NCBI RefSeq assembly: GCF_900111805.1
Contig: NZ_FOJN01000007.1
Coordinates: 124,001-188,000, forward strand
Length of the DNA: 64,000 nucleotides
Reading direction: 5' to 3'
DNA from: Rhodococcoides kroppenstedtii
GTDB lineage: Bacteria; Actinomycetota; Actinomycetes; Mycobacteriales; Mycobacteriaceae
Shown here: in pieces, positions 17,752 through 34,264 of the stretch
How the letters are laid out: every line of letters starts with the position of its first letter
Numbering within the stretch: the first letter of the stretch is position 1
Position numbers and translations under genes: made by a program
Notes under the pieces: generated by a model
Told to the model about the DNA's origin: nothing
The model's database searches: none
Seen by the model: the letters and a program-made list of their open reading frames with translations, nothing else

Positions 17752-19077
17752 ATGTCCTTCGGACAGGGAATGATGTCGAGTCGTCCGGCGCTGACACCGC
17801 ACGTGACGACCCTCGAATCCGACTCCCGGACCGACCGCCTGTCGCGGGGTGCGGCCTTTCGCATCGTCGCCGTCGTGTACTTCACCATCATGGCGTCGAG
17901 CAGTGCGCCGTCGCCGCTCTACCCGCTGTACCGGGAGGAGTGGGGGTTCGGCGCGTCGGTCCTGACGGTCGTGTTCGCCGTGTACGCGCTGGCGCTGCTC
18001 GTGTCGCTGCTGGTGGTCGGTGGGCTGTCCGACCACATCGGGCGCAAGCCGGTGGTGTTCGCCTCGATCGGTCTGCTGGTGGTGTCCCTGATCGTGTTCG
18101 CGGTCGCCGACGGGGTGGGGTGGTTGATCGCGGCTCGGGTCCTGCAGGGCGTCGCGGCCGGTGCTGCCACCGGCGCGTTGACGGCGGCGATCACCGACCT
18201 CTCGCCGACGCCACGCAGCGGTCCGTTGGTGAACAGCCTGGCTCCCGCGATCGGACTCGCCGGCGGCGGCATGGGGGCGGGTCTGCTGGTGCAGTTCGCG
18301 CCCTGGCCGACCACGACGGTGTACGTCCTGCTGATCGCGGCGCTGCTCGCACTGGCAGGCGCGATGGTCGCCGTGCCCGAGTCCGCCGTCGCCGCGGGCT
18401 TCACCGACTGGCGACACCTCCGCCGGAGTCTGACCCCGACGGTGTCGTTGCCCGCGTCCATCCGGTCGGCCTTCTGGGTGGTCATGCCGTCGTTGGTGGC
18501 CACGTGGTCGCTCGGCGGATTCCATCTCTCCCTGGGGCCGTCGATCATGCGGTCGGAGTTCGGGCTGACCGGCGCCGTCGCGGCGGGACTCGACATCTTC
18601 ACCCTGTTCACGGCCGGGGCAGCGGGTGCCGCAGTGGCGTCGCGCCTGGTGACCGACGCGGCGCGGGGTCGTCGGGTGATGGCCGTCGGCGCGCTCGTGC
18701 TCGTGGTCGGGGTCGGCCTCGACCTGGCGGGCCTCGCCACGGGGACCGCGGCCGTCTACTTCGCCGGGACCGCCGTGTCCGGACTCGGCTGGGGTGCCGC
18801 GTTTCTCGGCGCGATGCGGGTGATCGGCGCGATCGCGCCTCCCGACGATCGCGCGGGCGTCTTCTCGACGACGTACGTGCTGAGCTACCTCGCGTTCGGC
18901 CTCCCGGCCGTGATCGCAGGGTTCGTCGTGGGGGTGGTCGGGTTGTCGGTGACCGCGACGGTGTACGGCGGGTACGTCATCGCGTGCGCTCTCGGATCGG
19001 TGGTGGCGACGCGGGTGTCCGCCCGGCGGGCCGGTCGGGACGTTCGCCCGCTCGGTCCGGACAGGCAGCCCGCCTGA
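17752..19077 (+). CDS. MFS transporter (drug/metabolite efflux type)
   Basis: 441 residues with about 12 hydrophobic helices. The family motif after helix 2 is GGLSDHIGRKPVV; GVAAGAATGALTAAITDLSP lies in helices 4-5. The substrate cannot be read from sequence. Start choices are ATG 17752, 17770 and 17773; GGACAGGGA lies just before the last two, so the shorter forms are possible and differ only in a short N-terminal tail. Its stop codon TGA (19075-19077) lies inside the palindrome that serves the mno gene, so the end of this gene is also a control region. Confidence 0.8.
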   Translation: MSFGQGMMSSRPALTPHVTTLESDSRTDRLSRGAAFRIVAVVYFTIMASSSAPSPLYPLYREEWGFGASVLTVVFAVYALALLVSLLVVGGLSDHIGRKPVVFASIGLLVVSLIVFAVADGVGWLIAARVLQGVAAGAATGALTAAITDLSPTPRSGPLVNSLAPAIGLAGGGMGAGLLVQFAPWPTTTVYVLLIAALLALAGAMVAVPESAVAAGFTDWRHLRRSLTPTVSLPASIRSAFWVVMPSLVATWSLGGFHLSLGPSIMRSEFGLTGAVAAGLDIFTLFTAGAAGAAVASRLVTDAARGRRVMAVGALVLVVGVGLDLAGLATGTAAVYFAGTAVSGLGWGAAFLGAMRVIGAIAPPDDRAGVFSTTYVLSYLAFGLPAVIAGFVVGVVGLSVTATVYGGYVIACALGSVVATRVSARRAGRDVRPLGPDRQPA

Positions 19078-19090
19078 CCGATCGGGCAGG
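19073..19090. promoter_or_regulatory. Island operator copy 1, upstream of mno
   Basis: CCTGACCGATCGGGCAGG: an 18-bp palindrome with one mismatched pair, nearly identical to the copies at 23041 and 29152. It overlaps the MFS stop codon and lies 109 bp before the mno start; its centre is about 40 bp before a TAACGC box at 19122 that could be the -10. Confidence 0.7.
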
Positions 19091-19198
19091 AGCGGGTCGG
19101 CCACCGGACGGTTCTGCGGCGTAACGCTTCTCGCGGTCTCGCGCAGCACGCAGGGTGATGGCAGTCACACCGACTGCCGACCCCCGAGGAGACCTCCG

Positions 19199-20476
19199 AT
19201 GGCCATCGAGTTGAACCAGATCTGGGACTTCCCCATCAAGGAGTTCCACCCGTTCCCCCGCGCCCTGATGGGTGTGGGCGCCCACGACATCATCGGGGTG
19301 GAGGCGAAGAACCTGGGGTTCAAGCGCGCCCTGCTGGTGACCACCGGACTCCGCGGGTCCGGCATCATCGAGGAGCTCATCGGCAAGATCGAGTACCAGG
19401 GTGTCGAAGTGGTGCTCTTCGACAAGGTGGAGTCGAACCCCAAGGACTACAACGTCATGGACGCCGCCGCGCTGTACCAGAAGGAGAAGTGCGACAGCAT
19501 CATCTCCGTCGGCGGCGGCTCGAGCCACGACGCCGCGAAGGGCGCCCGCGTGGTCATCGCTCACGACGGTCGCAACATCAACGAGTTCGAGGGCTTCGCC
19601 AAGTCCACCAACAAGCAGAACCCGCCCCACATCGCCGTGTCCACCACGGCGGGAACGGGTTCCGAGACGTCGTGGGCCTACGTCATCACCGACACCTCCG
19701 ACATGGACAAGCCGCACAAGTGGGTGGCGTTCGACGAGGCGTCGATCGTCACCGTCGCGATCGACGATCCGCTGCTGTACTACACCTGCCCCCAGCACTT
19801 CACGGCGTACTGCGGATTCGACGTTCTCGCCCACGGCAGCGAGCCGTTCGTCTCGCGTCTCGACTTCGCGCCGTCTCTGGGCAATGCGCTGTACTCGGTG
19901 GAGCTGGTGGCGAAGAACCTCCGTGAGGCCGTCTACGAGCCGCGCAATCTGAAGGCCCGCGAGGGAATGATGAACGCGCAGTACATCGCCGGACAGGCCT
20001 TCAACTCCGGCGGTCTCGGCATCGTGCACTCGATCTCGCACGCTGTCAGTGCGTTCTTCGACAGCCACCACGGACTCAACAACGCCATCGCCCTGCCGCG
20101 GGTGTGGGAGTACAACCTGCCGTCCCGCTACGAGCGGTACGCCCAGCTGGCCGGCGCGATGGGCGTCGACACGCGGAACATGACCACGGTGCAGGCGGCG
20201 GACGCCGCCGTGGAGGCGGCGATCCGGCTGTCGCAGGACGTCGGCATCCCCGACAACTTCTCGCAGGTCACCACCCGGCTCTACGACAAGAACCGGATGA
20301 ACACCGGCAAGTACACCGGCCGGGGCGAGGTGATCACCGGGGACGAGAAGACGGTGCTGGCGATCTCCGAGCACATCCAGGACGACTGGTGCACCCCGGG
20401 CAATCCCCGTGAGGTGACGGTGGATTCGATGATCCCGGTCGTCGATCACGCCATCAACTCCGCCTACGGGCGCTGA
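19199..20476 (+). CDS. mno: NDMA-dependent nicotinoprotein methanol/alcohol dehydrogenase
   Basis: 425 residues. This is the group III iron-type alcohol dehydrogenase Mno/Mdo, a nicotinoprotein whose bound NAD(P) is re-oxidised by an external acceptor, in vivo mycofactocin. The N-terminus MAIELNQIWDFPIKEFHPFPRALMGVG is characteristic. SVGGGSSHDAAKGARVV binds the nucleotide; metal ligands come from CGFDVLAHGSEPF, SISHAVSAFFDSHHGLNNAIALP. Ribosome site GAGGAGA (19186-19192). In mycobacteria the enzyme needs the mft genes, and here these lie 9 kb downstream. It is followed 14 bp later by moxR-like and VWA genes. The shared palindrome at 19073 suggests co-control with mft. Confidence 0.92.
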   Translation: MAIELNQIWDFPIKEFHPFPRALMGVGAHDIIGVEAKNLGFKRALLVTTGLRGSGIIEELIGKIEYQGVEVVLFDKVESNPKDYNVMDAAALYQKEKCDSIISVGGGSSHDAAKGARVVIAHDGRNINEFEGFAKSTNKQNPPHIAVSTTAGTGSETSWAYVITDTSDMDKPHKWVAFDEASIVTVAIDDPLLYYTCPQHFTAYCGFDVLAHGSEPFVSRLDFAPSLGNALYSVELVAKNLREAVYEPRNLKAREGMMNAQYIAGQAFNSGGLGIVHSISHAVSAFFDSHHGLNNAIALPRVWEYNLPSRYERYAQLAGAMGVDTRNMTTVQAADAAVEAAIRLSQDVGIPDNFSQVTTRLYDKNRMNTGKYTGRGEVITGDEKTVLAISEHIQDDWCTPGNPREVTVDSMIPVVDHAINSAYGR

Positions 20477-20490
20477 TCGGAGGCCACGAA

Positions 20491-21528
20491 ATGACGACGG
20501 TCGGATCCTTCGCGCGGCAGCGGGAGAGCGCGGATCTCACGACGACGGCGGGCGTGCGGGAGGCGCTGGCGACGACGGGCTACGTCGCGAGCGACGAACT
20601 CGCCACGGTGGTGCGCCTCGCGATCGCGCTCGACCGCCCGCTGCTGCTCGAGGGTCCGGCCGGCGTCGGCAAGACGGAACTGGCGAAGGCGCTCGCGGAG
20701 GCGGGTGGACGACGACTGGTGCGGTTGCAGTGCTACGAGGGCCTCGACGACAACCGCGCGCTGTACGAGTGGGACTACGCGCGGCAGTTGCTGCACGTGC
20801 AGATGCTGCGGGACCGTACGAGCGCCGAGCTCGCGTCGGCGCCGGACCTGGCCACGGCGTCGGCGATGCTGGCGAACGTGGACTTCGGGTTGTACTCGGA
20901 GGCGTTCCTCGCCCCGCGACCTCTGCTCGACGCGATCCTGTCCGAGGACCCGGTGGTGCTGCTGGTCGACGAGGTGGACCGCACCGAGGAGTCGATGGAG
21001 GCGCTGCTGCTCGAGGTGTTGGCCGAGAAGCAGGTGACGGTACCGGAGGTGGGCACCTTCACCGCGCGCACGGCCCCGTGGGTCGTGTTGACGTCCAACG
21101 ACACTCGGGAACTGTCGGGTGCTCTGAAGCGGCGGTGTCTGCATCTGACCGTCGACTTCCCGACGGCGGAGATCGAGCGCGAGATCGTGTCGTCCCGCGC
21201 ACCCGACGTGGAGGAGGGCGTCGTCGCCGACGTGGTGGATCTGGCGCGGTCGCTGCGTGATCTGCCGCTGCGGAAGGCGCCCTCGGTGTCCGAGGTGATC
21301 GATGCGGCCCGCGCGGCGATGCTTCTCGGCGACACCGCCTCGGCGGCGACCCGCGAGATCCTGTACTCGGTCCTGCTGAAGTACGCCTCGGACACCGAGC
21401 TGGTGCGGGCGCGAGCGACTGCGCCCGCAGCGCCCCCGGCACCGGAGCGGACGGTGGTGCCGAGCATCGCGAGTGCGCCGCCGAATTCGACGACGGCCGC
21501 GTTCCGGGGACGGGGCGGACGGTCGTGA
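20491..21528 (+). CDS. MoxR-family AAA+ ATPase
   Basis: 345 residues. Walker A LLLEGPAGVGKTELAKAL, Walker B VVLLVDEVDR, sensor 1 VLTSNDTRELSGALKRRCLHL: a single MoxR-type AAA+ module with a C-terminal lid and an Ala/Pro-rich tail. MoxR ATPases act as chaperones, often for metal insertion, together with a VWA partner such as the next gene. The setting directly behind mno suggests it loads iron or cofactor into the dehydrogenase, or activates it; this is inference. Ribosome site CGGAGG at 20478-20483; the stop overlaps the next start (GTGA). Confidence 0.85.
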   Translation: MTTVGSFARQRESADLTTTAGVREALATTGYVASDELATVVRLAIALDRPLLLEGPAGVGKTELAKALAEAGGRRLVRLQCYEGLDDNRALYEWDYARQLLHVQMLRDRTSAELASAPDLATASAMLANVDFGLYSEAFLAPRPLLDAILSEDPVVLLVDEVDRTEESMEALLLEVLAEKQVTVPEVGTFTARTAPWVVLTSNDTRELSGALKRRCLHLTVDFPTAEIEREIVSSRAPDVEEGVVADVVDLARSLRDLPLRKAPSVSEVIDAARAAMLLGDTASAATREILYSVLLKYASDTELVRARATAPAAPPAPERTVVPSIASAPPNSTTAAFRGRGGRS

Positions 21529-23036
21529 CCCACTCCGCCGCCCCGGCGCCCGCCGTCGTGCTCGACGTGGTCGCCGCCGGCTTCGGACGGGTGCTGCGGC
21601 GCCACGGGGTCGCGGCGTCACCGGCCGAGGTGATCGAGGTCCGGCGGGTGCTGGGGTTGCTCGGCGCGCGTGATCTCGGCGCGCTCCGGTGGGCCCTCCG
21701 GGCGACGTGCGCGAAGTACTCCCACGAGCGTGCGGCGTTCGATCGAGCCTTCGACGAGATGTTCGCCCCAGCAGTCACGCTCGTCGACGCCGATGCCCGG
21801 CCGCCGTCCGGTGCGGTCACCGCGGACGGGTTGCCGACGTCGCTGGAGGTGGCGGGGGACCACGCCGACGTCGGCCGCTACGCCGACTACAACGAGCGGG
21901 CCGCCGACGTCGGGGACTTCTTCGACACCCCCGAGAAGGAGAAGGGATTCAACCCGCACAAGGACGACGACGATCTGTCGCTCACGGGCGCCGACTCCGA
22001 GGTCTCCGTGGACACCGACGCCGAATCCGGCCGGCGGGGCGTGACGTACACGGTGGAGGTCGATCGGGGCGACAGCGCGACCGTCGGTGAGCTCGCGTCG
22101 TCGGACGCCGTGGTCGCGCACGGCGTGCTGCGGTGGGACGACCCGGCGGGGATCCTGGGGTGGCTGAACGCCTACGACCCGTCGACGGTGTACGGCGACG
22201 CCGCACTCGGCGAGGAACTCACGCGCGCGCAACTCGATCGGCTGGCGGCGGCGGTGGAGGCGTTCGTCGACGCGGTCGCTCAGCCGGACGTCGACGCTCC
22301 CTCGTCGGCAGGAGAGCCGGGGGCGTCCACCGACCGGGCGGACGTCGTCGCGGCGTCTCGCGAGGTGGTGCGGCGCATGCGGGGTGCGCCTCGGCCGCGT
22401 CCCCGCGAGCACGGCGCGGGTCGACTCGAACTGCGGCGGACGGTGCGGGCGGGCATGCGGACCGACGGGGTGCCGTTCCGTCTGATCTCGCGGACCCCGG
22501 TCCCGGAGCAGGTCAGGCTGCTCGTGCTGGCGGACGTGTCGCTGTCGGTCCGGCCGATCACGGCGTTCGCGCTGCGCCTCGCGCAGTCTCTGCGCCACCG
22601 CGTGTCCCGGTGCACGGTGCTCGCCTTCGTCGATCGGCCCGTCGACGTCACCGACGTGCTCGCGAGCAGCACCGGCGACGACGCCCTGGCCGCGGTGCTC
22701 GCCGCGCCGGAACTCGACCTCGAGGCGTCGAGCGACTACGGACGCGTCTTCGCCGACGTGCTCGCGCACCACGGGTCCGCGGTGACGTCCCGGACCTCGG
22801 TGGTGATCGTCGGGGACGGTCGGTGCAACGGTCTGCCGTCCGGTGTCCGCGACCTCGAGACCATCGCCCGGCGCACGCACCGGCTGGCGTGGATCACGCC
22901 GGAGGCCGAGCGGTACTGGTCGCAGGCGACGTGTTCGATGGAGGAGTACGCGCAGGTCTGCGACGGTGTGGTGGTGGCCTGCGACGCCCGCCGGTTGGTG
23001 GAGCGGGCGGCCGATCTGGGATCCGCGCTGCGGTGA
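21525..23036 (+). CDS. VWA domain (CoxE-like) partner of the MoxR ATPase
   Basis: 503 residues from GTG 21525. The N-terminal half is acidic and variable (NPHKDDDDLSLTGADSEVS); the C-terminal half is a von Willebrand A domain with the metal-site signature VLADVSLSVRPIT (DxSxS) and later SSDYGRVFADV and VVIVGDGRCNG. The N-terminal RRHGVAASPAEVIEVRRVLG resembles CoxE/YeaD proteins that pair with MoxR ATPases. Together the two genes look like an activation complex for the nicotinoprotein dehydrogenases on either side. Confidence 0.8.
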   Translation: MTHSAAPAPAVVLDVVAAGFGRVLRRHGVAASPAEVIEVRRVLGLLGARDLGALRWALRATCAKYSHERAAFDRAFDEMFAPAVTLVDADARPPSGAVTADGLPTSLEVAGDHADVGRYADYNERAADVGDFFDTPEKEKGFNPHKDDDDLSLTGADSEVSVDTDAESGRRGVTYTVEVDRGDSATVGELASSDAVVAHGVLRWDDPAGILGWLNAYDPSTVYGDAALGEELTRAQLDRLAAAVEAFVDAVAQPDVDAPSSAGEPGASTDRADVVAASREVVRRMRGAPRPRPREHGAGRLELRRTVRAGMRTDGVPFRLISRTPVPEQVRLLVLADVSLSVRPITAFALRLAQSLRHRVSRCTVLAFVDRPVDVTDVLASSTGDDALAAVLAAPELDLEASSDYGRVFADVLAHHGSAVTSRTSVVIVGDGRCNGLPSGVRDLETIARRTHRLAWITPEAERYWSQATCSMEEYAQVCDGVVVACDARRLVERAADLGSALR

Positions 23037-23040
23037 TCGA

Positions 23041-23058
23041 CCTGCCCGATCGGGCAGG
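23041..23058. promoter_or_regulatory. Island operator copy 2, perfect palindrome
   Basis: CCTGCCCGATCGGGCAGG is a perfect 18-bp palindrome just after the VWA stop. Its centre (23049.5) is 30.5 bp before the start of the TAAGCT -10 box and about 43 bp before the presumed leaderless transcription start, the classical position of an activator that touches polymerase at -35. Confidence 0.75.
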
Positions 23059-23079
23059 GGAAACCGGACCCTCCGGACG

Positions 23080-23085
23080 TAAGCT
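23080..23085 (+). promoter_or_regulatory. -10 box TAAGCT of the second alcohol dehydrogenase
   Basis: TAAGCT is followed by 7 nt and ATG 23093, a leaderless layout. No -35 consensus is visible where the palindrome lies, which fits an activator-dependent promoter. Confidence 0.55.
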
Positions 23086-23092
23086 GGATCAC

Positions 23093-24316
23093 ATGCTCGG
23101 CACGACGGACGTCTCCACCGGCCCGACCCCGGCGACCTCGCTCTCCCGCGTGACGGGCGACGGCGCGGGTCGGGTGGTCAAGTTCCACGCGCCGGAGATC
23201 GTGTTCGGAGTCGGGTCGACGGGGGAGGTCGCGCACGCCGTGGCGCGGCTGGGCGGCCGGCGGCCGTTCCTGGTCACCGACGCCGGGCTGGTCGAGACGG
23301 GATGGGTGGACGAGATCGCGCGGGATCTACGGTCGGCGGGGCTCGATCCCGTCGTGTGGTCCGAGCCGACGCCGAATCCCAAGGACCACGAGATCGAGGC
23401 GGGCGTCGACGTCTACCGCGACCGCGGCTGCGACGTCCTCGTCGCGGTCGGGGGCGGCAGCGTGATGGACGCGGCCAAGGGCGTGGCGATCCTTGCGGCG
23501 AACGACGGGCGCATTCTCGACTACGAGGGTGTGGACCGGGTGGCCGCGCCCATTCCCCCGCTCGTCATGGTGCCCACCACCGCCGGAACCGGTGCGGACG
23601 TCTCCCAGTTCTGCATCGTCACCGACACCGGCCGCGGCACCAAGATCACGATCCTCGGTCGCTCGCTGGTGCCCGACATCACGGTGATCGACCCGCGGTT
23701 GCTCACCACGATGCCGGAATGGCTCAGTGCTGCAACCGGTCTCGACGCGCTCACGCACGGGATCGAAGCGTTCGTCTCATTGGCGCACAACCCTCTCACC
23801 GACGACCACGCTCTTCGGGCGGTCACGTTGGTGATCGGCACGCTCGCGCGCACCATCGACGATCCCACCTCGCTGCCCATGCGCACCGTCATGGCCCAGG
23901 CCAGCCTGGAGGGCGGATTGGCCTTCACCAACGCGATTCTCGGTGCGGCTCATGCCATGTCCCACCAGGTCGGCGGTCTGTTGGACCTGCCGCACGGTGT
24001 CATCAACGGGATCCTGTTGCCGCACGTGATCCGGTTCAACGCCGACGCGGACGGGTCGCCCTACGTTCCGGTGGCGCGGCAACTCGGTCTCGACGAGGCG
24101 AGGGGGAGTGCGCGCGAGGCGGCGCTGGCGGTCGCCGATCGGGTGGAGACGTTGGCCCGGCAGGTCGGTGTGCCGCGGTCGCTCGGAACCATCGGCGTCC
24201 GCGAGGAAGACGTCGACCGTCTCGCCGGCTTCGCGCTGCGGGACGCGTGCATGGCGACCAATCCGCGTCCGGTCACCCACGCCGACGTCGCGGCGTTGTT
24301 CCGGCAGGCGTTGTGA
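23093..24316 (+). CDS. Iron-containing alcohol dehydrogenase (1,3-propanediol dehydrogenase-like)
   Basis: 407 residues. Nucleotide loop VAVGGGSVMDAAKGVAIL, TTAGTGADVSQFCI, metal ligands in TGLDALTHGIEAFVS and GAAHAMSHQVGG…LPHGVINGILLPHV. It is a different subgroup from mno and resembles the DhaT-like enzyme that lies beside mno and mnoSR in mycobacteria, so a primary alcohol or diol such as 1,3-propanediol is a likely substrate. Whether it is also a nicotinoprotein cannot be read directly. The start ATG 23093 is chosen from the leaderless promoter; the same frame stays open upstream over the VWA gene but is not protein-like there. The sensor kinase follows 35 bp later. Confidence 0.85.
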   Translation: MLGTTDVSTGPTPATSLSRVTGDGAGRVVKFHAPEIVFGVGSTGEVAHAVARLGGRRPFLVTDAGLVETGWVDEIARDLRSAGLDPVVWSEPTPNPKDHEIEAGVDVYRDRGCDVLVAVGGGSVMDAAKGVAILAANDGRILDYEGVDRVAAPIPPLVMVPTTAGTGADVSQFCIVTDTGRGTKITILGRSLVPDITVIDPRLLTTMPEWLSAATGLDALTHGIEAFVSLAHNPLTDDHALRAVTLVIGTLARTIDDPTSLPMRTVMAQASLEGGLAFTNAILGAAHAMSHQVGGLLDLPHGVINGILLPHVIRFNADADGSPYVPVARQLGLDEARGSAREAALAVADRVETLARQVGVPRSLGTIGVREEDVDRLAGFALRDACMATNPRPVTHADVAALFRQAL

Positions 24317-24350
24317 GACCGGCGCTGCGTTCGGTGAGGCCTGCGGCGCT

Positions 24351-25649
24351 GTGACCGGTCCCGAGCCCGTCACCGATCTGTCCCTGCTCACCGGGCTCAG
24401 ATCGTCGAAAAGCACGTACTACCCGCAGTATCGGGGCGCCGCGGAACGGCTCGAACGCGTCGTGCACGCCCTCGATCTCGTCTCCCGTGCGCTGACCCGC
24501 ACCGTGGAGGGCCCGGAGACGCTGATCTGCGCGGTCGCCGAAGCAGCACGGGCGCATCTGAACGCTCGCTGGGTGGTGGTCGCGCTGACCGACGCGTCGT
24601 TGCCGGGCACCGGGCCTCGTCGACTGGTCCTCGGACCGGACGCGAGCCCGTTCCTGGTGGGCGAGGTGGAGGGCCCGCCGTTGCCCGACGACGTGCTTGC
24701 GTGCCTCGAGGACGTCCGCAGCGCCCGCTTCGCCGCGGAGCAGGTGATCGAACCGCATTACGCGTTCGTGCCGATCGAGTCCGTCGACGGCGCCGTCGGT
24801 GCGCTCGCCGCGTGGACCGATCCGCGGCGCACGTTGGACGCGACCGACGGCGCCGTGCTCAGCATCCTGGCGTCGCAAACGGCAGTGGCATTGCAGAACT
24901 CGGCCACCTTCCAGGACGCGCGACGGACCGCGGCCGATCTCGCCGTGCGCAACGCCGAACTCGAGGCCACGCAGCGTCGCCTCGGGGCGGCCCATCGGCA
25001 TCAGGTGCTCGACGAGGAGCGGCATCGCATCGCGCGCGAGCTGCACGACAGCGTGACCCAGGCGGTGCTCTCGGCAGGGATGCAGATCGAGGTGTGTCGC
25101 AACGACATTCCCGATTCGGAACGACGCGAGCGGCTCGATCTGGCGAAGGACCTGACCCGCCGTGCGGTCGAGCAGTTGCGCTCCGCCATCTACTCGCTGG
25201 GTCATGCCGGCGACGCGGAGCGATCGTCGTTGCCCGACATGCTCGATCAGCTCAGCGTCGTGCACATGCCGGACGAGTTGCAGGTCGTCGTCGACATCGA
25301 CGGGACACCGGAGGAACTGCCGGGCGACGTCGAGCACGCGATCCTGCGGATCGCCGGCGAGGCCCTGTTCAATGCGGCGGTGCATTCCGACGCGTCGCAC
25401 GCCGCCCTGGACCTGCGGTACCGGCGTGGCACGGTGACGCTCGTCGTGTCCGACGACGGCGACGGCGACCCCGCCACCGTGCGCACCGCCATGCGTCTCG
25501 CCGAGTCGGGCGACTTCGGCGGCGCCCACCGCGGACTGGTCAACATGGCCACGCGCGCAGGGGAACTCGGTGGTCACCTCGACGTCGGGCGCTCACGGCT
25601 CGGCGGTATCGAGGTCGCCGCCACCATCCCGACGGGAGGACAGCGATGA
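24351..25649 (+). CDS. mnoS: Sensor histidine kinase, NarL/DegS-type (MnoS-like)
   Basis: 432 residues from GTG 24351. A GAF-type sensor domain occupies about 40-190 (SRALTRTVEGPETLICAVAEAARAHL … LSILASQTAVALQNSATF), followed by a short coiled coil, the HisKA_3 phosphoacceptor ERHRIARELHDSVTQ (His232) and a HATPase_c domain with EALFNAAVHSDA and SDDGDGD. No membrane helix is seen, so it should sense a cytoplasmic signal. By gene order (alcohol dehydrogenase, kinase, LuxR regulator next to mno) it corresponds to MnoS, which controls alcohol/1,3-propanediol genes in Mycolicibacterium smegmatis. The identity rests on context and domain order, not on a search. Confidence 0.75.
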   Translation: MTGPEPVTDLSLLTGLRSSKSTYYPQYRGAAERLERVVHALDLVSRALTRTVEGPETLICAVAEAARAHLNARWVVVALTDASLPGTGPRRLVLGPDASPFLVGEVEGPPLPDDVLACLEDVRSARFAAEQVIEPHYAFVPIESVDGAVGALAAWTDPRRTLDATDGAVLSILASQTAVALQNSATFQDARRTAADLAVRNAELEATQRRLGAAHRHQVLDEERHRIARELHDSVTQAVLSAGMQIEVCRNDIPDSERRERLDLAKDLTRRAVEQLRSAIYSLGHAGDAERSSLPDMLDQLSVVHMPDELQVVVDIDGTPEELPGDVEHAILRIAGEALFNAAVHSDASHAALDLRYRRGTVTLVVSDDGDGDPATVRTAMRLAESGDFGGAHRGLVNMATRAGELGGHLDVGRSRLGGIEVAATIPTGGQR

Positions 25650-25662
25650 CGGGAGCACGGCG

Positions 25663-26295
25663 ATGACGGGCATCATGCTGGTCGACGACCACGCCATTCT
25701 GCGGCAGGGCCTGCGGTCGGTGCTCGAGCGGGAACCCGACCTGCAGGTCGTCGGGGAGGCCGCCTCGGCTCGGGAGGCGTTGGCCCTGGCGGACCGGTTG
25801 GTGCCCGAGGTGGCGTTGCTCGACCTCAAGCTGTCCGCCGGCTCGGACCACGAGGGTCTCGCCGTCTGCCGCGCACTGTCGGCGCGCCACCCGACGATGG
25901 GCCTGCTGGTGCTGACGACGTTCCTGGACGAACGCCTGGTGGTCGACGCCGTGCACGCCGGCGCGCGCGGATACGTGGTCAAGGACGTCGACACCACCGA
26001 GCTCGTGCGGGCCATCCGCGCGGTGGCGCGCGGCGAATCCGCGTTCGACGCGCGGAGCGCCTCGGCCGTGGTGCGATCGCTCAACGGCACGGGGGTGCGC
26101 GAGGATTCGCTGTCCGAGCGGGAACTCGAGGTGTTGAGGTTGCTGGCGACCGGACTGTCCAACAGCGCCATCGGGTCGGAGCTGTTCATCTCCGCCACCA
26201 CCGTGAAGTTCCACGTCAGCAACATCATGCGCAAGCTGGGTGCGACCCGGCGCGCGGAGGCCGTGCACCTCGCCGGGAAGGGCGGCTTGATCTAG
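25663..26295 (+). CDS. mnoR: LuxR/NarL-type response regulator (MnoR-like)
   Basis: 210 residues. Receiver domain IMLVDDHAILRQGLRSVLE with the phosphate-accepting Asp54 in ALLDLKLSAGSDHEG, then a C-terminal LuxR helix-turn-helix LSERELEVLRLLATGLSNSAIGSELFISATTVKFHVSNI. Start ATG 25663 has GGGAG at 25651; an ATG at 25646 overlapping the kinase stop is out of frame. It is the best candidate to bind the shared palindrome at 19073, 23041 and 29152: regulators of this class bind inverted repeats as dimers, and the gene lies in the operon headed by one of these sites. Confidence 0.8.
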   Translation: MTGIMLVDDHAILRQGLRSVLEREPDLQVVGEAASAREALALADRLVPEVALLDLKLSAGSDHEGLAVCRALSARHPTMGLLVLTTFLDERLVVDAVHAGARGYVVKDVDTTELVRAIRAVARGESAFDARSASAVVRSLNGTGVREDSLSERELEVLRLLATGLSNSAIGSELFISATTVKFHVSNIMRKLGATRRAEAVHLAGKGGLI

Positions 26296-26343
26296 CCGTC
26301 CCGGTTTCCGGTCGTTGTCGTGGTGGATGTCGGTGGGGGTCTC

Positions 26344-26349
26344 TATAAT
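26344..26349 (+). promoter_or_regulatory. Consensus -10 TATAAT of the DUF222 gene
   Basis: A perfect TATAAT ends 7 nt before ATG 26357, the cleanest leaderless promoter in the window. No clear -35 is seen. Confidence 0.65.
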
Positions 26350-26356
26350 CGAACAC

Positions 26357-28219
26357 ATGAGCGATCGGGGGGTCGTCGCGGTGAGCGCGGCGCAGGTGGG
26401 CGGTGTGCCGTGGCCCGAGCGCGATCACATTGCGCTGGGCCTGCCTCCGTCGTTCGACCTGCCCGTGGGTGGGCATCTCGACGCCCTGGCCGACCTCGCT
26501 GCGGGGGCGGGGTACCTCGAGTGGCGCCGCTACCAGCACGCCGCCGCCCTGCACACCGAACTCGTCGTGCCCGAGGAGGACCGCGACGAGCGGGCGGTCG
26601 ATGCGTACGCCCAGTGCGCCGCCCGCATCGCCACCGCCCTGTCGGTGTCGCAGTACGTCGCCGAACGACTCCTCGACAACGCCGTCGCCCTCCGCGACCG
26701 GCTCCCGCGGGTGTTCGAGTGCCTGCGCGACGGGGTGGTCTCCCCGACTTTCATCCGCACCATCGTCTCGCGCACCGAACTCATTCACGGTCGCCCGTAC
26801 CAGGAGCAGGTGGACGCCGACATCGCCGCCGCACTGCGGAAGCCGGGGTCGTGGTCGACAGCGCGGGTGCGGGACCTGTGCGACCAGATGGTCTACCGCC
26901 GTGATCCCGACGCCGTCCGCGAACGCCGCGAGGAAGCACTGAAAGGGCGGTGCTTCTTCACCGAGGTCGGTCTCGACGGCATGGCGACCGTGGGGGCGAC
27001 GATGTCCGCCGAACGCGCCGCCATCGTCGCCCGCGTCGTCGAACGACTCGCCGCGCAGGTGTGCAAGCACGACAGTCGCAGCACGGGTGCGCGGGCATCG
27101 GATGCGTTGTTCGCGTTGGTCAAGCACGCCCCGTTCGGGTGCGACTGCGCCCGCCCCGAGTGCGCCTTCCAGGTCGTCGATGCGGACGAGGTGGCGGCGA
27201 CCGCGGCGCGGATCGTGATCCACGTGGTCACCGACACCACCACCCTCACCGGCCCCGTCCCCGCGACCACCACCGCGGCCGCGAACTCCGCCGCTGCGGA
27301 CCGGGCCGTCACCGACGGGGTCGCCGTCGATGAGGTCGCGCCCGAGGAGACTCCGATCGGAAAGGTCGTGGCCGAGGAGACTACGGCTTATACCGTTGCG
27401 GCCGATGCCGTTGCGGCGGAGGCGGTCTTGGCCCAGGACGTTGCTGCGGAAGCGGTCGCAACCGACGAGTCTGCGGTCGACGAGGACGCTGCGGTCGACG
27501 AGGCTGCGGCGGAGCCCGAGCCCGACCTGATCGACGGCGTCGGGTACGTCGCCGGACTCGGCATCATCTCCGGAGCCCACGTCCGCGACCTCGCCCACGA
27601 CCCCGACACCCTGGTTCGCCCGTTGGGCGACGGCACCGACACTCCACTCCCGGCGACCCAGCCGGCCGACCCCTACCGGCCGTCCGCGGCACTGGACACC
27701 TACATCCGCGCCCGCGACCGGTACTGCACCTGGCCCGGCTGCAGCAAGCCCGCCTGGGACGGCGACCTCGACCACATCACCGAATACGACCACGCCCATC
27801 CCGAGCGGGGTGGGCGCACCAGCGCGACCGGACTCGGCGCGAAATGCCGGTTCCACCACCTGCTGAAGACGTTCGGTGACTTCGTCGACGACCAGTACGA
27901 CGACCCCGACCACCCCGGCCGGATCATCCGCACGGTCACCATCCCCGAAGGACGCACCGTCCTCGGCCCGGCGTACACCGGGTTCGACACCCACCCCGGC
28001 CTCGACATGATCGTCTTCGGCGACCCACCCGCCACCGGCAGCATCACGTCACCCACACCGCGCACCCCGGCACCGGACGGCACCGAACCCACCCGACCCG
28101 CCCCACGCACCGAGCAGAAACACGCCCGACGACGACAGGAACGCAACCGAAACCGACTCCGCAACAACCTGAACGGGATCCGACCACCCGAACCCGACGA
28201 CGCACCACCCCCGTACTGA
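26357..28219 (+). CDS. DUF222 / HNH endonuclease-domain protein (13E12 repeat family)
   Basis: 620 residues. The N-terminal ~300 residues are DUF222 (LADLAAGAGYLEWRRYQHAA, VSQYVAERLLDNAVALRDRLPRV, GRCFFTEVGLDGMATVGATM). A C-terminal HNH nuclease domain follows: RDRYCTWPGCSKPAWDGDLDHITEY…LGAKCRFHHLLK, with the two Cys and the DH/HH pairs intact. Between them (about 310-400) is a low-complexity Ala/Val/Asp/Glu tract. The tail is basic and Pro-rich. The family is repeated in mycolic-acid actinobacteria and has no proven cellular role. It interrupts the alcohol-oxidation island between mnoR and mftM. Confidence 0.85.
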   Translation: MSDRGVVAVSAAQVGGVPWPERDHIALGLPPSFDLPVGGHLDALADLAAGAGYLEWRRYQHAAALHTELVVPEEDRDERAVDAYAQCAARIATALSVSQYVAERLLDNAVALRDRLPRVFECLRDGVVSPTFIRTIVSRTELIHGRPYQEQVDADIAAALRKPGSWSTARVRDLCDQMVYRRDPDAVRERREEALKGRCFFTEVGLDGMATVGATMSAERAAIVARVVERLAAQVCKHDSRSTGARASDALFALVKHAPFGCDCARPECAFQVVDADEVAATAARIVIHVVTDTTTLTGPVPATTTAAANSAAADRAVTDGVAVDEVAPEETPIGKVVAEETTAYTVAADAVAAEAVLAQDVAAEAVATDESAVDEDAAVDEAAAEPEPDLIDGVGYVAGLGIISGAHVRDLAHDPDTLVRPLGDGTDTPLPATQPADPYRPSAALDTYIRARDRYCTWPGCSKPAWDGDLDHITEYDHAHPERGGRTSATGLGAKCRFHHLLKTFGDFVDDQYDDPDHPGRIIRTVTIPEGRTVLGPAYTGFDTHPGLDMIVFGDPPATGSITSPTPRTPAPDGTEPTRPAPRTEQKHARRRQERNRNRLRNNLNGIRPPEPDDAPPPY

Positions 28220-28228
28220 CCGGGGTGG
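28205..28228. terminator. Possible bidirectional terminator
   Basis: CCACCCC (28205-28211) pairs with GGGGTGG (28222-28228) around 10 nt, spanning the stop of the DUF222 gene and lying just before the convergent end of mftM. The stem is short, so confidence is low. Confidence 0.3.
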
Positions 28229-28238
28229 CGCCGCGTGG

Positions 28239-29078
28239 TCATCCAGGCGACGCAGCGTCCAGTACCGCCCACCCGCCATGGTGGGAGAACACCTCGTACG
28301 GCCGTCCGGAGCGGGCGGCGAGCGCGGTGACGGCGTCCGCGTCGAAGACTCGAACGTGACCGTGGCATGCCTGTGCCTCGTCCTCGTACGGCACCGCGAT
28401 CACGACGCGGCGTCGGGCGACGCGCAGCGCTTCGGCGACGATGCGGTCGCCGAGGTCGGCGTCGACGTGCTCGAGCAGGTGCAGCGCGGTCACGGTGTCG
28501 ACGGCGTCGTCGGGCACGGGGACGTCCGCTGCATCGCAGACGAGCGTCTCGACGTCGATGCCGAGGGGTGCTCGCATCGCGTCGAGCAGCCGCATCGTGC
28601 CGGCGTGGAGGTCGGTGGCGATCACCGGGACACCGCGGGCGGCGAGTCGCAGCGGAAAGAAGCCGAAGCAGGACCCCAGGTCCAGAACCGTTCCCTCGAC
28701 GAGTGATTCGGCCACCTCGTGCACGGGCGCGAAGTCGGCCGTCCCGTCGAGGAGGTCGCGCAGGGACTGTCGGTAGTAGGTTGCCCAGGCGTCGATCGGA
28801 TCGTCCACGGTCGAGCGCACCAGGCCGACCATGACGGCCTCGAACTCGTCTTGCCCGGCGCCGACCTCCGCGACCCGCGCGGTCACCTCCGCCACGAGCG
28901 ACTCACGCAATCGGTCGGCAGGCAAGGTATGGGTGACCACCAGCCGGCCACCCACCCGTCGTACCGTCACCGACACCGCACCAGGCACCCCCGACTCCCG
29001 CATCACCGTGACCGTGCCGTGGGACCACACTCCCGGCGTGCCGGGGGCGAGGGAGTCGAACGGGGCGAGGGTCGGCAT
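28239..29078 (-). CDS. mftM: Mycofactocin oligosaccharide methyltransferase-like protein
   Basis: 279 residues starting at ATG 29078 on the minus strand. The C-terminal part is a class I SAM-dependent methyltransferase: VLDLGSCFGFFPLRLAARG (motif I), VIATDLHAG, TVTALHLLEHVD and RRRVVIAVPYE. The N-terminal ~110 residues (VWSHGTVTVMRESGVPGAVSVTVRR…) are a separate domain typical of MftM, which methylates a glucose of the oligoglucosyl chain of mycofactocin. Divergent position to mftA supports this. A leaderless promoter (TACGCT, 29085-29090) and the palindrome at 29152 lie upstream. The identification is from recognised sequence pattern and location. Confidence 0.75.
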   Translation of the reverse strand: MPTLAPFDSLAPGTPGVWSHGTVTVMRESGVPGAVSVTVRRVGGRLVVTHTLPADRLRESLVAEVTARVAEVGAGQDEFEAVMVGLVRSTVDDPIDAWATYYRQSLRDLLDGTADFAPVHEVAESLVEGTVLDLGSCFGFFPLRLAARGVPVIATDLHAGTMRLLDAMRAPLGIDVETLVCDAADVPVPDDAVDTVTALHLLEHVDADLGDRIVAEALRVARRRVVIAVPYEDEAQACHGHVRVFDADAVTALAARSGRPYEVFSHHGGWAVLDAASPG

Positions 29079-29084
29079 GCGCCG

Positions 29085-29090
29085 AGCGTA
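29085..29090 (-). promoter_or_regulatory. -10 box TACGCT of mftM
   Basis: On the minus strand TACGCT is followed by 6 nt and the mftM ATG at 29078. It starts 70.5 bp from the centre of the shared palindrome. Confidence 0.4.
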
Positions 29091-29151
29091 GGTCGCTGAC
29101 GAGGCCGGCCGGGCCGGATGCGCGCGAACCCTCGGGTGCGCCGGTGAGCCA

Positions 29152-29169
29152 CCTACCCGATCGGGCGGT
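29152..29169. promoter_or_regulatory. Island operator copy 3, between mftM and mftA
   Basis: CCTACCCGATCGGGCGGT matches the perfect copy at 23041 in 15 of 18 positions, with the inner CCCGATCGGG fully symmetric. The centre (29160.5) lies midway between the divergent promoters, about 71 bp from the mftA -10 candidate and 70 bp from that of mftM. Confidence 0.65.
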
Positions 29170-29292: not shown

Positions 29293-29403
29293 ATGACCGA
29301 GAAGAACACCGTCGCCACCACCGAGGACGACACCGCCCGTCCGTTGGTCCAGGAGTCGCTGGTCGAGGACGTGTCCATCGACGGCATGTGCGGCGTGTAC
29401 TGA
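29293..29403 (+). CDS. mftA: Mycofactocin precursor peptide
   Basis: 36 residues, a short gene (ribosome site GAGAGGAAG at 29280-29288). The C-terminus IDGMCGVY is the invariant mycofactocin core; the last two residues, Val35 and Tyr36, are the ones decarboxylated, crosslinked and excised to form the redox cofactor. The acidic leader (TTEDDTARPLVQESLVEDVS) is what MftB binds. The stop overlaps the mftB start (TGATG). It heads the biosynthetic operon. Confidence 0.97.
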   Translation: MTEKNTVATTEDDTARPLVQESLVEDVSIDGMCGVY

Positions 29404-29744
29404 TGACCGCCGCAGCGTCCCCGACGGCCCCCGCAGGGAGTCTGCTGACAGGTCGGTGGCAACTTGCCCCTCAGGTGGCCGTGCGCCCGGAGCCGTTCGG
29501 GGCGCTGCTGTACCACTTCGGCACCCGGCGGCTGTCCTTCCTCAAGACCCGCGGCGTGCTGGCGGTCGTGCGGTCACTGCCCGAGCACCCCGATGTGAGG
29601 TCGGCACTGTCCGCGGCGGCGGTGCCGGACGACGCCGTTCCGCAGTATCTACACGCTCTGACCGCGCTCGCCGAGTCGTCGATGATCGTTCCGGCGCAGC
29701 AGGACTCGGTGCTTCAGGTCTCACCCAAGGAGGACCTCGCATGA
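29403..29744 (+). CDS. mftB: Mycofactocin precursor-binding chaperone (RiPP recognition element)
   Basis: 113 residues from ATG 29403, overlapping the mftA stop. It matches MftB: LAPQVAVRPEPFGALLYHFGTRRLSFLKTRGVLAVV, a PqqD-like winged-helix recognition element that presents the MftA leader to the radical SAM enzyme MftC. An upstream in-frame ATG (29388) lies inside the essential mftA core codons and is unlikely to be used. The stop overlaps the mftC start. Confidence 0.95.
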   Translation: MTAAASPTAPAGSLLTGRWQLAPQVAVRPEPFGALLYHFGTRRLSFLKTRGVLAVVRSLPEHPDVRSALSAAAVPDDAVPQYLHALTALAESSMIVPAQQDSVLQVSPKEDLA

Positions 29745-31021
29745 CAGCCCCGACAGCCCCGCAACCCGTGGGCCGACTGATCGACCGGTTCGAACTGGGA
29801 CTCGATGCCCCCATCTGCCTGACGTGGGAGCTGACCTACGCCTGCAACCTCTCGTGCGTGCACTGCCTGTCGTCCTCCGGCCGGCGCGATCCGCGTGAAC
29901 TGTCGACGGAGCAGTGCAAGGCCGTCATCGACGAGTTGCAGCGCATGCAGGTCTTCTACGTCAACATCGGCGGCGGCGAACCCACCGTCCGCTCCGACTT
30001 CTGGGAACTCGTCGACTACGCCACCGACCACCAGGTGGGCGTGAAGTTCTCCACCAACGGCGTGCGGATCGACGAGACCGTCGCCGCGCGCCTTGCCGCG
30101 TCCGACTACGTCGACGTCCAGATCTCGCTCGACGGCGCCACCGCCGAGGTCAACGACGCGGTCCGCGGGCCGGGCTCGTTCGACATGGCGGTCCGGGCAC
30201 TGCGCAATCTGAAGGACGCGGGCTTCCGGGACGCGAAGATCTCCGTCGTCGTCACCCGCCACAACGTCGCCCAGCTCGACGACTTCAAGGCCCTCGCCGA
30301 CACGTACGACGCCACCCTGCGGATCACTCGCCTGCGCCCGTCGGGCCGCGGCGCCGACGTCTGGGACGACCTGCATCCCACCGCGGCGCAGCAACGCGAA
30401 CTCTACGACTGGCTGGTCGCCAACGGGGAGGGCGTGCTCACCGGGGACTCGTTCTTCCACCTGTCCGCGTTCGGCGGCGCCCTGCCGGGCCTGAACCTGT
30501 GCGGCGCAGGCAGAGTGGTGTGCCTGATCGACCCGATCGGCGACGTCTACGCCTGCCCGTTCGCCATCCACGAGCAGTTCCTCGCCGGCAACGTCCTGCG
30601 CGACGCCACCGACACCCTCGGCGGCTTCCAGGCCGTCTGGCAGAACTCGGCGCTGTTCCGGGACCTGCGATCCCCGCAGACCGGTGGCGCGTGCAGCTCC
30701 TGCGCCCACTTCGACGCGTGCCGCGGCGGGTGCATGGCGGCGAAGTTCTTCACCGGGCTCCCGCTGGACGGCCCGGATCCCGAATGCGTGCAGGGCTACG
30801 GCGAATCCGCGCTCGCCGCCGATCGCGGCGAGATACCGAAGTCGTCCGTCGACCATTCCCGCAGCGGGAAGCGATCGACCCCCCGAGCCTCCGTCCCGCT
30901 GACGCTGTTGACGCGTCGGGACGGCGCCCCCGCCCTCGGGAAGGCCGGAGGCCGGCCGCCGACAACACTGTGCGACGAGAACCCCCTCGCGGGGCTGTCG
31001 CGAGAGGAGCGTTCCCGATGA
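29741..31021 (+). CDS. mftC: Mycofactocin radical SAM maturase
   Basis: 426 residues. The radical SAM motif is CNLSCVHC (Cys35, Cys39, Cys42; CX3CX2C), followed by INIGGGEPTVRSDF. The C-terminal SPASM-type cysteine region includes GRVVCLIDPIGDVYACPFAIHE and GGACSSCAHFDACRGGCMA for auxiliary Fe-S clusters. It oxidatively decarboxylates the MftA Tyr and then joins it to Val. The C-terminal ~50 residues after the SPASM region are Arg/Pro-rich and appear longer than the core enzyme requires. Ribosome site AAGGAGG at 29727-29733; ATGA overlap with mftD. Confidence 0.96.
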   Translation: MTAPTAPQPVGRLIDRFELGLDAPICLTWELTYACNLSCVHCLSSSGRRDPRELSTEQCKAVIDELQRMQVFYVNIGGGEPTVRSDFWELVDYATDHQVGVKFSTNGVRIDETVAARLAASDYVDVQISLDGATAEVNDAVRGPGSFDMAVRALRNLKDAGFRDAKISVVVTRHNVAQLDDFKALADTYDATLRITRLRPSGRGADVWDDLHPTAAQQRELYDWLVANGEGVLTGDSFFHLSAFGGALPGLNLCGAGRVVCLIDPIGDVYACPFAIHEQFLAGNVLRDATDTLGGFQAVWQNSALFRDLRSPQTGGACSSCAHFDACRGGCMAAKFFTGLPLDGPDPECVQGYGESALAADRGEIPKSSVDHSRSGKRSTPRASVPLTLLTRRDGAPALGKAGGRPPTTLCDENPLAGLSREERSR

Positions 31022-32253
31022 AGCGAATCCGATCTCCCTGGGCTCGGCCCGAGTGGATGGAGACCGTGGCGGAGGCCCAGCGGCGGGCGAAGAAGCGGCT
31101 GCCCCCGTCGGTCTACTCGGCGCTGATCGCCGGGTCCGAACGTGGCACGTCCTACGACGACAACCAGAGCGCGTTCGGCGAGTTGGGCTTCGCCCCCCGC
31201 GTCGCGGACCACGCCGCGACCCGCGATCTCGCGACCACGGTTCTGGGACAACAGCTCTCGATGCCGGTGATCATCTCGCCGACGGGGGTGCAGGCGGTGC
31301 ACCCGGACGGCGAGGTGGCCGTCGCCCGTGCCGCCGCGGCTCGCGGCGTTCCCATGGGACTGTCGTCGTTCGCCTCGAAGCCGATCGAGGACGTCACCGC
31401 CGTCCACGGTCAGACGTTGTTCCAGGTCTACTGGTTGGGCAGTCGCGCCGACATGGTCGCGCGCCTCGATCGTGCCCGCGCCGCCGGCGCCGTCGGGGTG
31501 ATCCTGACGCTGGACTGGTCCTTCTCCTACGGTCGGGATTGGGGCAGCCCCGCGATTCCGGAGCGGATGAACCTCGCCGCGATGGTGAAGTTCGCGCCCG
31601 AGGGTTTGCGTCGCCCGGCGTGGTTGCTCGATTTCGCACGCAGCGGCCGCATCCCCGATCTGACGACGCCCAACATCGTTCCGCCGGGTGCGCCGCAGAC
31701 GCCGACGTTCTTCGGCGCCTACGGTATGTGGCAGCAGACGCCGCCGCCGACGTGGGAGGACATCGCCTGGTTGCGACGTCAGTGGGACGGGCCGTTCGTG
31801 CTCAAGGGCATCTCCCGCGTCGACGACGCGAAACGTGCCGTCGATGCCGGGTTCTCCGCGATCTCGGTGTCCAACCACGGTGGCAACAATCTCGACGGCA
31901 CGCCGGCCGCGATCAGGATGCTGCCCGCGATCGCCGACGCCGTCGGCGACGAGATCGAGGTGCTGCTCGACGGCGGGATCCGGCGAGGCAGCGACGTCGT
32001 CAAGGCCGTCGCGCTCGGTGCGCGCGCGGTGATGATCGGGCGCGCCTACCTGTGGGGTCTCGCCGCGGGCGGGCAGGCCGGCGTCGAGAACGTCCTCGAC
32101 GTGCTGCGCATGGGTATGGACTCGACCCTGCTCGGACTCGGCAAGGCGTCGGTCCACGATCTGTCGCCGGCCGACGTCGTCGTCCCGGACGGGTTCACGC
32201 GCACCCTCGGTGTCGATCCGGCGCGAACCCTGACCGCCGTCGCGATGCCTTAG
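31018..32253 (+). CDS. mftD: Pre-mycofactocin synthase, FMN-dependent alpha-hydroxyacid oxidase family
   Basis: 411 residues starting at the ATG that overlaps the mftC stop. The FMN (L-lactate dehydrogenase/glycolate oxidase) TIM barrel is evident: MPVIISPTGVQAVHPDGEVAVARAA, FVLKGISRVDDAKRAVDAG, ISVSNHGGNNLDGTPA (catalytic His region), EVLLDGGIRRGSDVVKAVALGARAVMIGRAYLWGL. MftD oxidatively deaminates the excised Val-Tyr lactam to give the redox-active alpha-keto amide. In most mft operons mftE follows directly; here two other genes intervene. Confidence 0.95.
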   Translation: MKRIRSPWARPEWMETVAEAQRRAKKRLPPSVYSALIAGSERGTSYDDNQSAFGELGFAPRVADHAATRDLATTVLGQQLSMPVIISPTGVQAVHPDGEVAVARAAAARGVPMGLSSFASKPIEDVTAVHGQTLFQVYWLGSRADMVARLDRARAAGAVGVILTLDWSFSYGRDWGSPAIPERMNLAAMVKFAPEGLRRPAWLLDFARSGRIPDLTTPNIVPPGAPQTPTFFGAYGMWQQTPPPTWEDIAWLRRQWDGPFVLKGISRVDDAKRAVDAGFSAISVSNHGGNNLDGTPAAIRMLPAIADAVGDEIEVLLDGGIRRGSDVVKAVALGARAVMIGRAYLWGLAAGGQAGVENVLDVLRMGMDSTLLGLGKASVHDLSPADVVVPDGFTRTLGVDPARTLTAVAMP

Positions 32254-33546: not shown

Positions 33547-34232
33547 CCTCGCTCGGCGAGCGGGTCTGGACGGACGTGCCCGGCGGAACCGTCGCAGTGC
33601 CCGTCGGATCGGTGGAACAGCACGGCCCGCACCTGCCGCTCGACACCGACACCCGCATCGCGGCGGCGGTCGCCGAGGCCGTCACGGAGACGGTGGGAGG
33701 CGGTCTGGTGGCCCCCGCGATCACCTACGGCGCCAGCGGAGAGCACGAAGGGTTTCGGGGCACGGTGTCGATCGGACTCGACGTGCTCACCTCCCTCGTG
33801 GTCGAGTACGGACGGTCGGCGTTCCGGTGGGCCGAGCGGGTGGTGTTCGTGAACGGCCACGGCGGCAACGGCAGCGCGCTGCGCGACGCCGTGACACTGC
33901 TGCGCCACGAGGGGCGCGACGCCGCGTGGTTTCCGTGCGCGGTCCCGGGCGCCGACGCGCACGCCGGCCGGACCGAGACCTCGCTGCTCCTGCACCTCGA
34001 TCCGCGGTCGGTCCGGGTCGACGCGGCCGAAGCGGGGGTGACGGATCCGGTGTCGAACCTCATGGACCGCTTGAGAGTCGAGGGGGTGGCGGGTGTCTCG
34101 CCCACCGGTGTCCTGGGCGATCCGACGGGCGCGAACGCCGCGGAGGGTGAGCGCCTTCTCACCGATCTGCGGCACCGCTTCCGAGTGTCCGTCGATCGGT
34201 GGACACCCGACGACCGCGCCGTGCTGCGCTGA
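33543..34232 (+). CDS. mftE: Mycofactocin precursor peptide peptidase (creatininase family)
   Basis: 229 residues from GTG 33543. Creatininase-family metal ligands and motifs: [31 protein letters not shown] and [19 protein letters not shown]. MftE cleaves the modified MftA to release the Val-Tyr derived dipeptide (AHDP) for MftD. The length is normal. It is separated from mftD by the GNAT and alarmone-synthetase genes but remains coupled to the latter by a GTGA overlap. Confidence 0.94.
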
Positions 34233-34264
34233 TTCCGATCACGGCTCCCGATGTCGAGGGAGCT

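Follow-up and report, generated by a model that had tools for sequence, protein, structure and literature searches.

Palindromes predicted to be MadR operators stand before the alcohol dehydrogenase operons and between the mycofactocin genes mftM and mftA of Rhodococcoides kroppenstedtii

The stretch of Rhodococcoides kroppenstedtii DNA analyzed here (the window; 64,000 nucleotides, positions 124,001 to 188,000 of contig NZ_FOJN01000007.1) carries two alcohol dehydrogenase operons, mno-madB-madC and adh-madS-madR, followed by genes for mycofactocin (mft) biosynthesis. An 18-bp palindrome stands before each of the two operons and a third time between the divergent genes mftM and mftA. We consider it very probable from comparison with relatives that these palindromes are operators of the response regulator MadR, through which MadSR would drive the client enzymes, the chaperones, its own operon, MftM and, in this organism, mftA. 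The three 18-mers had been singled out in a first-pass annotation of the sequence; they were confirmed at the same coordinates, and all of them fit the family-wide form CCTRYCCGATCGGRYAGG. The weight matrix used for scoring was built from 64 sites before mno and adh in other genomes, W, L039 and L040 being left out.

19073-19090: predicted MadR site 1, CCTGACCGATCGGGCAGG, one mismatch to the perfect palindrome, 24.4 bits, upstream of mno-madB-madC
23041-23058: predicted MadR site 2, CCTGCCCGATCGGGCAGG, perfect palindrome, 28.1 bits, upstream of adh-madS-madR
29152-29169: predicted MadR site 3, CCTACCCGATCGGGCGGT, three mismatches, 22.1 bits, between mftM (leftward) and mftA (rightward)
19199..20476, + strand: mno (madA), N,N-dimethyl-4-nitrosoaniline (NDMA)-dependent methanol/alcohol dehydrogenase; TIGR04266, 947.6 bits (cut-off 625)
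20491..21528, + strand: madB, AAA ATPase; NF047784, 499.2 bits (cut-off 475)
21525..23036, + strand: madC, VWA/CoxE-like protein; NF047783, 719 bits (cut-off 600); PF05762
23093..24316, + strand: adh, iron-type alcohol dehydrogenase; PF00465/PF25137; position matches MSMEG_6239 (1,3-propanediol dehydrogenase)
24351..25649, + strand: madS, sensor histidine kinase; NF047786, 590 bits (cut-off 500); HisKA_3; GAF match below cut-off
25663..26295, + strand: madR (MnoR orthologue), response regulator and proposed binder; NF047785, 336.8 bits (cut-off 300)
28239..29078, - strand: mftM, mycofactocin oligosaccharide methyltransferase; NF041255, 349.8 bits (cut-off 200); head to head with mftA
29293..29403, + strand: mftA, mycofactocin precursor; TIGR03969, 49.6 bits (cut-off 25)
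29403..29744, + strand: mftB, assigned by position and reading frame only
29741..31021, + strand: mftC, radical SAM maturase; TIGR03962, 647.6 bits (cut-off 265)
31024..32253, + strand: mftD (approximate start); PF01070 FMN_dh plus position
33543..34232, + strand: mftE; TIGR03964, 325.6 bits (cut-off 172)
34199..35707, + strand: mftF; TIGR03965, 586.9 bits (cut-off 280)

MadR combines a receiver domain (PF00072) with a LuxR/NarL-type helix-turn-helix (HTH; PF00196), and in this pairing of receiver and GerE/LuxR domains it resembles response regulators of the NarL/FixJ type. Such regulators use inverted-repeat DNA sites; MadR differs in its half-sites, CCTRYCC/GGRYAGG, and in its targets, both as derived here. 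The adh product scored 471.7 bits against the ErcA model NF041833, under its cut-off of 550, and no MftD-specific match was obtained for 31024..32253. A fused MftB-MftC, suspected from the open reading frame list, was ruled out, as mftB occupies a separate frame. The arrangement in which MadR is encoded with MadS, adh and mno-madBC recurs in many relatives, in some of which (e.g., G056, G036, and G140) mno lies apart from adh-madSR; genome G005 has the same layout as the window, and its Mno and MftC are 99% identical.

When up to three mismatches are allowed, the degenerate pattern matches eight places in the window; shuffled sequences average 2.63, and 4 of 100 reach eight. Exact matches to the pattern across the whole genome (4,082,826 bases in 30 contigs) are confined to the places before mno, before adh and between mftM and mftA, the next-best having two mismatches. 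At up to three mismatches the genome holds at least 91 forward matches against at least 35 for the backward control; the family-wide pattern gives at least 97 against at least 82, so that loose matches mean little. Ranked by the matrix among the matches listed by these two mismatch-pattern searches, the three window sites outscore every other place, the next-best reaching 17.4 bits. By itself, the mft site at 29152 is unremarkable, and its weight comes from the orthologues.

Across 151 genomes of the family, mno was found in 61 and MadR in the same 61 (lists compared by eye), while mftC was found in 115 and MftR, the TetR-type regulator of mft, exceeded its cut-off in 108. Exact copies of the palindrome CCTRYCCGWWCGGRYAGG are present in 39 genomes, namely 38 of the 61 with MadR and 1 of the 90 without (G134), a co-occurrence with a Fisher p of 1.6e-18, uncorrected for relatedness; its backward control occurs in 1 of the 151. 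Of the 42 places with this exact palindrome, 38 fall upstream of mno, adh or mftM or in the gap separating adh from mftA (32 located on annotated DNA and six, in G050, G067, G097, G122, G129, and G141, by coordinates only). The other four (G038:C35, G028:C2, G134:C10, and G122:C22) lie elsewhere and are taken as chance.

Conservation of the site in orthologous promoters, which the first-pass annotation had proposed as a check, is far above shuffle expectation. Within 250 bp upstream, a site scoring 12 bits or more precedes mno in 123/138 cases, adh in 98/128, mftM in 52/88, mftA in 37/101, and mftR in 5/76, where some genomes are counted twice and the mno and adh sites, though not those of mftM and mftA, partly served as matrix training data; dinucleotide shuffles (20 per region) predict 0.15, 0.15, 0.05, and 0.0 for mno, adh, mftM, and mftA, respectively. 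Before the internal genes no site of at least 12 bits was found (madB 0/134, madC 0/131, madS 0/124, madR 0/129, and mftC 0/102). The full set of sites, before mno, before adh-madSR and in the mftM/mftA region, is present in R. kroppenstedtii and, at 13 bits or more, at L139 (G005), L140, L145, L154, L161, and L170. The adh promoters of Gordonia and Williamsia relatives mostly lack the site. At L063, L065, L085, L103, L115, L203, and L211, which belong to these relatives, the MadR HTH reads STVKFHIRN, against mostly TTVKFHVSN elsewhere; the adh promoter there has no palindrome and the remaining sites often have an altered centre, making co-evolution of the MadR HTH and its site a possibility.

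Candidate −10 boxes had been placed 40.5, 30.5, 71.5 (mftA), and 70.5 (mftM) bp from the site centres in the first-pass annotation, distances that are correct to the first base of each box; the rule drawn from them, that they differ by near-whole helical turns, is unsupported in orthologues. Measured centre to centre to TAnnnT boxes at distinct loci with a site, the distance is 70-74 for mftA in 21/33 loci, 56-58 for adh in 54/77 (33 in R. kroppenstedtii), and 55-57 in 13/41 or 78-79 in 8/41 for mftM. No peak was found for mno, with at most 3/103 loci at any one TAnnnT distance, and the R. kroppenstedtii mno has no TAnnnT box. A common helical phase was dropped, as the candidate distances vary among orthologues.

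The MadR of R. kroppenstedtii has a counterpart in M. smegmatis, where the excerpted text of PMC11303327 reports that MnoR binds a palindrome before mno and that deletion of mnoS/R lowers expression of mno and msmeg_6239, the 1,3-propanediol dehydrogenase gene. MnoSR (MSMEG_6236/6238) corresponds to MadSR in that its response regulator belongs to the NCBIfam MadR family, equivalence being by synteny and name, and in the palindrome before mno, likened by position rather than by letters. The systems differ in that one site, before mno, is reported in that text for M. smegmatis, while in R. kroppenstedtii predicted sites also stand before adh-madSR and between mftM and mftA. The proposal in the first-pass annotation that a single MnoR-like activator, encoded at 25663, serves cofactor synthesis, modification and client genes receives strong comparative support: the protein is over the MadR equivalog cut-off, the palindrome follows MadR through the genomes, and the sites before mno, adh-madSR, mftM, and mftA far exceed shuffle expectation. 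In the literature searched, which lay largely outside subscription journals, no report joining mycofactocin with MnoR or MadR control was found.

In Mycolicibacterium, Gordonia, Tsukamurella, and Dietzia, mftM often faces madR in convergent orientation and is preceded, at 52-103 bp, by a site of its own. Such mftM genes lack a site of 12 bits in Williamsia L206 and L208-L210 (0.0 to 11.6 bits) and in Gordonia L207 (10.4 bits) and L218 (−6.9 bits). In mycobacteria, all 27 loci (some of them duplicates) show a site of 11 bits or more before both mno and adh, and where mftM lies in the stretch a site precedes it in 20/23; the misses are L281, L283, and L286, with mftM about 4 kb from madR in the latter two. 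That many lineages have the predicted site before mftM, and a subset also before mftA, goes beyond the published placing of MnoR at mno. We take MSMEG_6237 of M. smegmatis to be mftM. Expression values in the excerpted text of PMC7174638 have MSMEG_6237, an S-adenosylmethionine (SAM) methyltransferase gene, lowered along with MSMEG_6240-6242 in a zur mutant (−6.9 fold versus −24 to −28), in an smtB mutant (−5.4 versus −4.6 to −6.4), in the double mutant (−4.6 versus −8.4 to −8.7), and under zinc excess (−11.2 versus −3.0 to −4.6).

At mftA, the upstream score has a median of 10.9 bits at 53 loci of genomes with MadR and −5.7 bits at 19 loci of genomes without (Mann-Whitney p 1.1e-4, uncorrected for relatedness; locus L136, in a genome without MadR, was too short and was dropped). 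At 36/53 and 1/19 (G013) of these loci, respectively, the shuffle p was no higher than 0.015 (floor 0.005). The mftA loci were grouped by their divergent neighbour after removal of seven duplicate rows; at 11 loci adh or no neighbour gene was found. Where mftM is the head-to-head neighbour, 14/15 carry a site scoring 9 bits or more and 2/15 an MftR operator; where mftR is divergent, the site is present in 26/68 and the MftR operator (at least 8 bits) in 64/68, although 52/71 mftR-divergent rows also trained the operator matrix. Sites of 17 bits or more occur in 10/15 of the former and 2/68 of the latter, and at mftR loci with both elements the start of the MadR site precedes the MftR operator by 57-60 bp in 21/26. 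In Pseudonocardia (L199 and L217), mftA near mno-madBC has an 18.7-bit MadR-like palindrome plus an element resembling the MftR operator, and no madSR was found in the stretch examined.

The MftR system described in the excerpted text of PMC8728441 involves the same biosynthetic genes and likewise a promoter palindrome before mftA, a 27-bp operator bound by a TetR repressor that answers to long-chain acyl-CoA. Most mft genomes surveyed carry an MftR gene. In contrast, the clade of R. kroppenstedtii has neither an MftR over the cut-off nor its operator, and has a predicted MadR palindrome instead: no MftR operator was found before the R. kroppenstedtii mftA (best score −4.0 bits versus a median of 31.7 at the 68 mftR-divergent loci), and none of 20 scored candidate proteins in its genome exceeds the 224.9-bit MftR cut-off (best E 4.3e-26, against about 1e-63 to 1e-88 in genomes with MftR). 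The earlier observation that no mftR adjoins this mft operon stands. MftR over the cut-off was likewise not found in G000, G005, and G073. In a tree of MadS plus MadR (22 rows), the clade groups with L140 (Rhodococcus sp. UNC23MFCrub1.1) on a branch with support 100/100, and neither has mftR beside mft (for L140, in the stretch examined). Relatives in the genus that have mftR carry a weaker element of 9.7-14.0 bits at a similar place, e.g., CCTACCCGGCTGGACGGT, and site 3 looks like a strengthened form of this older element, left beside mftM upon loss of mftR.

Genomes with two mft clusters offer an internal comparison. Seven had both promoters scored (G050 and G067, with two mftC genes, fall outside the set), and in six the mad-linked copy scores 13.8-27.7 bits against −3.9 to −15.8 for the MftR-linked copy (G024, 27.7/−4.3; G061, 22.8/−12.5; G062, 23.9/−15.8; G079, 17.1/−3.9; G120, 23.9/−3.9; and G188, at L145 and L264, 13.8/−7.8). 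The six are not independent because three belong to one genus.

A number of observations weigh against MadR control of mft, or against MadR as the binder. The seventh two-cluster genome, G070, lacks a site at either copy (−9.6 and −10.9 bits), the first of these copies being MftR-linked and about 5 kb from mno. G013 has no MadR and carries a 9.7-bit site at mft, while 17 of the 53 mft loci of genomes with MadR have no convincing site (shuffle p at least 0.02), among them those of Tsukamurella and Dietzia relatives and MftR-linked copies. None of ten mycobacterial MftR-type mftA promoters (one being the second copy of G188) has a site. G128 and G042 possess MadR and no MftR over the cut-off, yet their mft promoters score 9.5 and −2.6 bits, and G031 and G055 have mft with neither regulator. 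Zinc depletion raises MSMEG_6237 7.4-fold, with no value listed for mno or MSMEG_6240-6242 in the excerpted text of PMC7174638. That of PMC11303327 describes the MnoR sequence as occurring once in the M. smegmatis genome and names no correlated targets beyond the mno operon; a search by one site's letters can miss variants at the free R/Y positions, and this may be why a single copy was reported. Finally, MadR and mno always co-occur, so correlation alone cannot name the binder or separate the two. A strict rule by which the MadR site appears at mftA only where MftR was lost is rejected by the 26/68 mftR-divergent loci with a site, and also by G128 and G042, where MftR is absent and so is a strong site. 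G128 lies elsewhere in the MadS plus MadR tree, which would make its loss of mftR a separate one.

An alternative that we think unlikely, though it counts against MadR control of mftA, is that site 3 serves as an operator of mftM only, mftA being transcribed independently of MadR. It would fit Mycobacterium, Gordonia, Tsukamurella, and Dietzia, in which mftM standing alone by madR often has its own upstream site and mftA often has none. However, mftA also has a site without an mftM neighbour, in G117 (23.2 bits, mftR neighbour) and G024 (adh neighbour); Rhodococcus-type loci with mftR adjoining mftA mostly have one of 12-16 bits; and the clustered spacing of the mftA sites to their candidate −10 boxes points the same way. 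Less likely still is that some other regulator of the same alcohol response binds the palindrome, an idea that draws on the constant pairing of MadR with mno; MadR is the sole transcription factor among the six proteins encoded from mno to madR, its own operon has the site before it, and its orthologue MnoR is reported at the mno palindrome in the excerpted text of PMC11303327. Chance palindromes in a G+C-rich genome, to which the many loose matches and the three mismatches of site 3 might appeal, can be dismissed, being already contradicted by the mftA scores, the palindrome co-occurrence, the promoter counts (0/620 for internal control genes), and the near-zero shuffle expectation.

Under the preferred reading, MadR operation of all three sites, alcohol would be sensed by MadS, leading to phosphorylation of MadR, a dimer of which would bind CCTRYCCGATCGGRYAGG and activate transcription. 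Its targets would be mno-madB-madC, adh-madS-madR, which would close a positive feedback loop, and, both from the single intergenic site that they would share, mftM leftward and the mftA operon rightward. Where MftR is present, MadR would reach mftM only, or mftA jointly with MftR. The system is best described as a variant of a known two-component regulon that appears to extend to cofactor genes. We also favour, with less confidence, the view that control of mft passed from the lipid-responsive MftR to the alcohol-sensing MadSR, mftR and its operator having been lost and the bidirectional site driving mftM and mftA. Such control would have arrived separately several times in the family, the second mft clusters beside mad included.

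Some neighbouring features deserve mention. A DUF222 gene (26315-28219, + strand) separates madR from mftM, which adjoin in many relatives, and its start sequence was found at two further places on the contig, which suggests a dispersed repeat family. Between mftD and mftE lie overlapping genes for a GNAT acetyltransferase (32279-32797, + strand) and a RelA/SpoT-domain small alarmone synthetase (32794-33546, + strand). The synthetase gene is near mftC in G000, G005, and G073 and distant from it or on another contig in five Rhodococcoides with mftC placed (G036, G056, G103, G128, and G140); the mft operon thus appears to have acquired a guanosine tetraphosphate (ppGpp) synthetase gene. The next-best MadR-like place of the genome among the matches listed (C14:24446-24463; L291 1947-1964), at 17.4 bits, lies 199 bp before acs (acetate-CoA ligase). 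It is the same in G073, scores 8.5 bits in G005 and −4.1 in G128, and at a similar distance in G036, G056, G103, and G140 ranges from 0.5 to 14.2 bits; it is weak in most of 30 genomes checked. Possibly acs also belongs to the regulon, serving the use of acetate that arises from ethanol; it is kept as a lead only.

In the published picture, as far as the excerpted texts go, mft is under MftR and acyl-CoA (PMC8728441) and the client enzyme under MnoSR, reported for the mno operon alone (PMC11303327). Conserved upstream of mftM, and in a subset also of mftA, the site would provide a direct link between cofactor supply and alcohol oxidation, and the element allows MadR targets to be predicted from sequence, while genomes with two mft clusters represent natural experiments in the rewiring of a cofactor pathway. 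In the clade of R. kroppenstedtii, where neither mftR nor its operator was found and a strong predicted MadR site stands between mftM and mftA, Mno, MadBC, Adh, MadSR, MftM, and the mft proteins would rise together, so that cofactor supply would follow the alcohol signal. If this is true, a single regulon would comprise the enzyme with its chaperones and sensor as well as the synthesis and tailoring of the cofactor.

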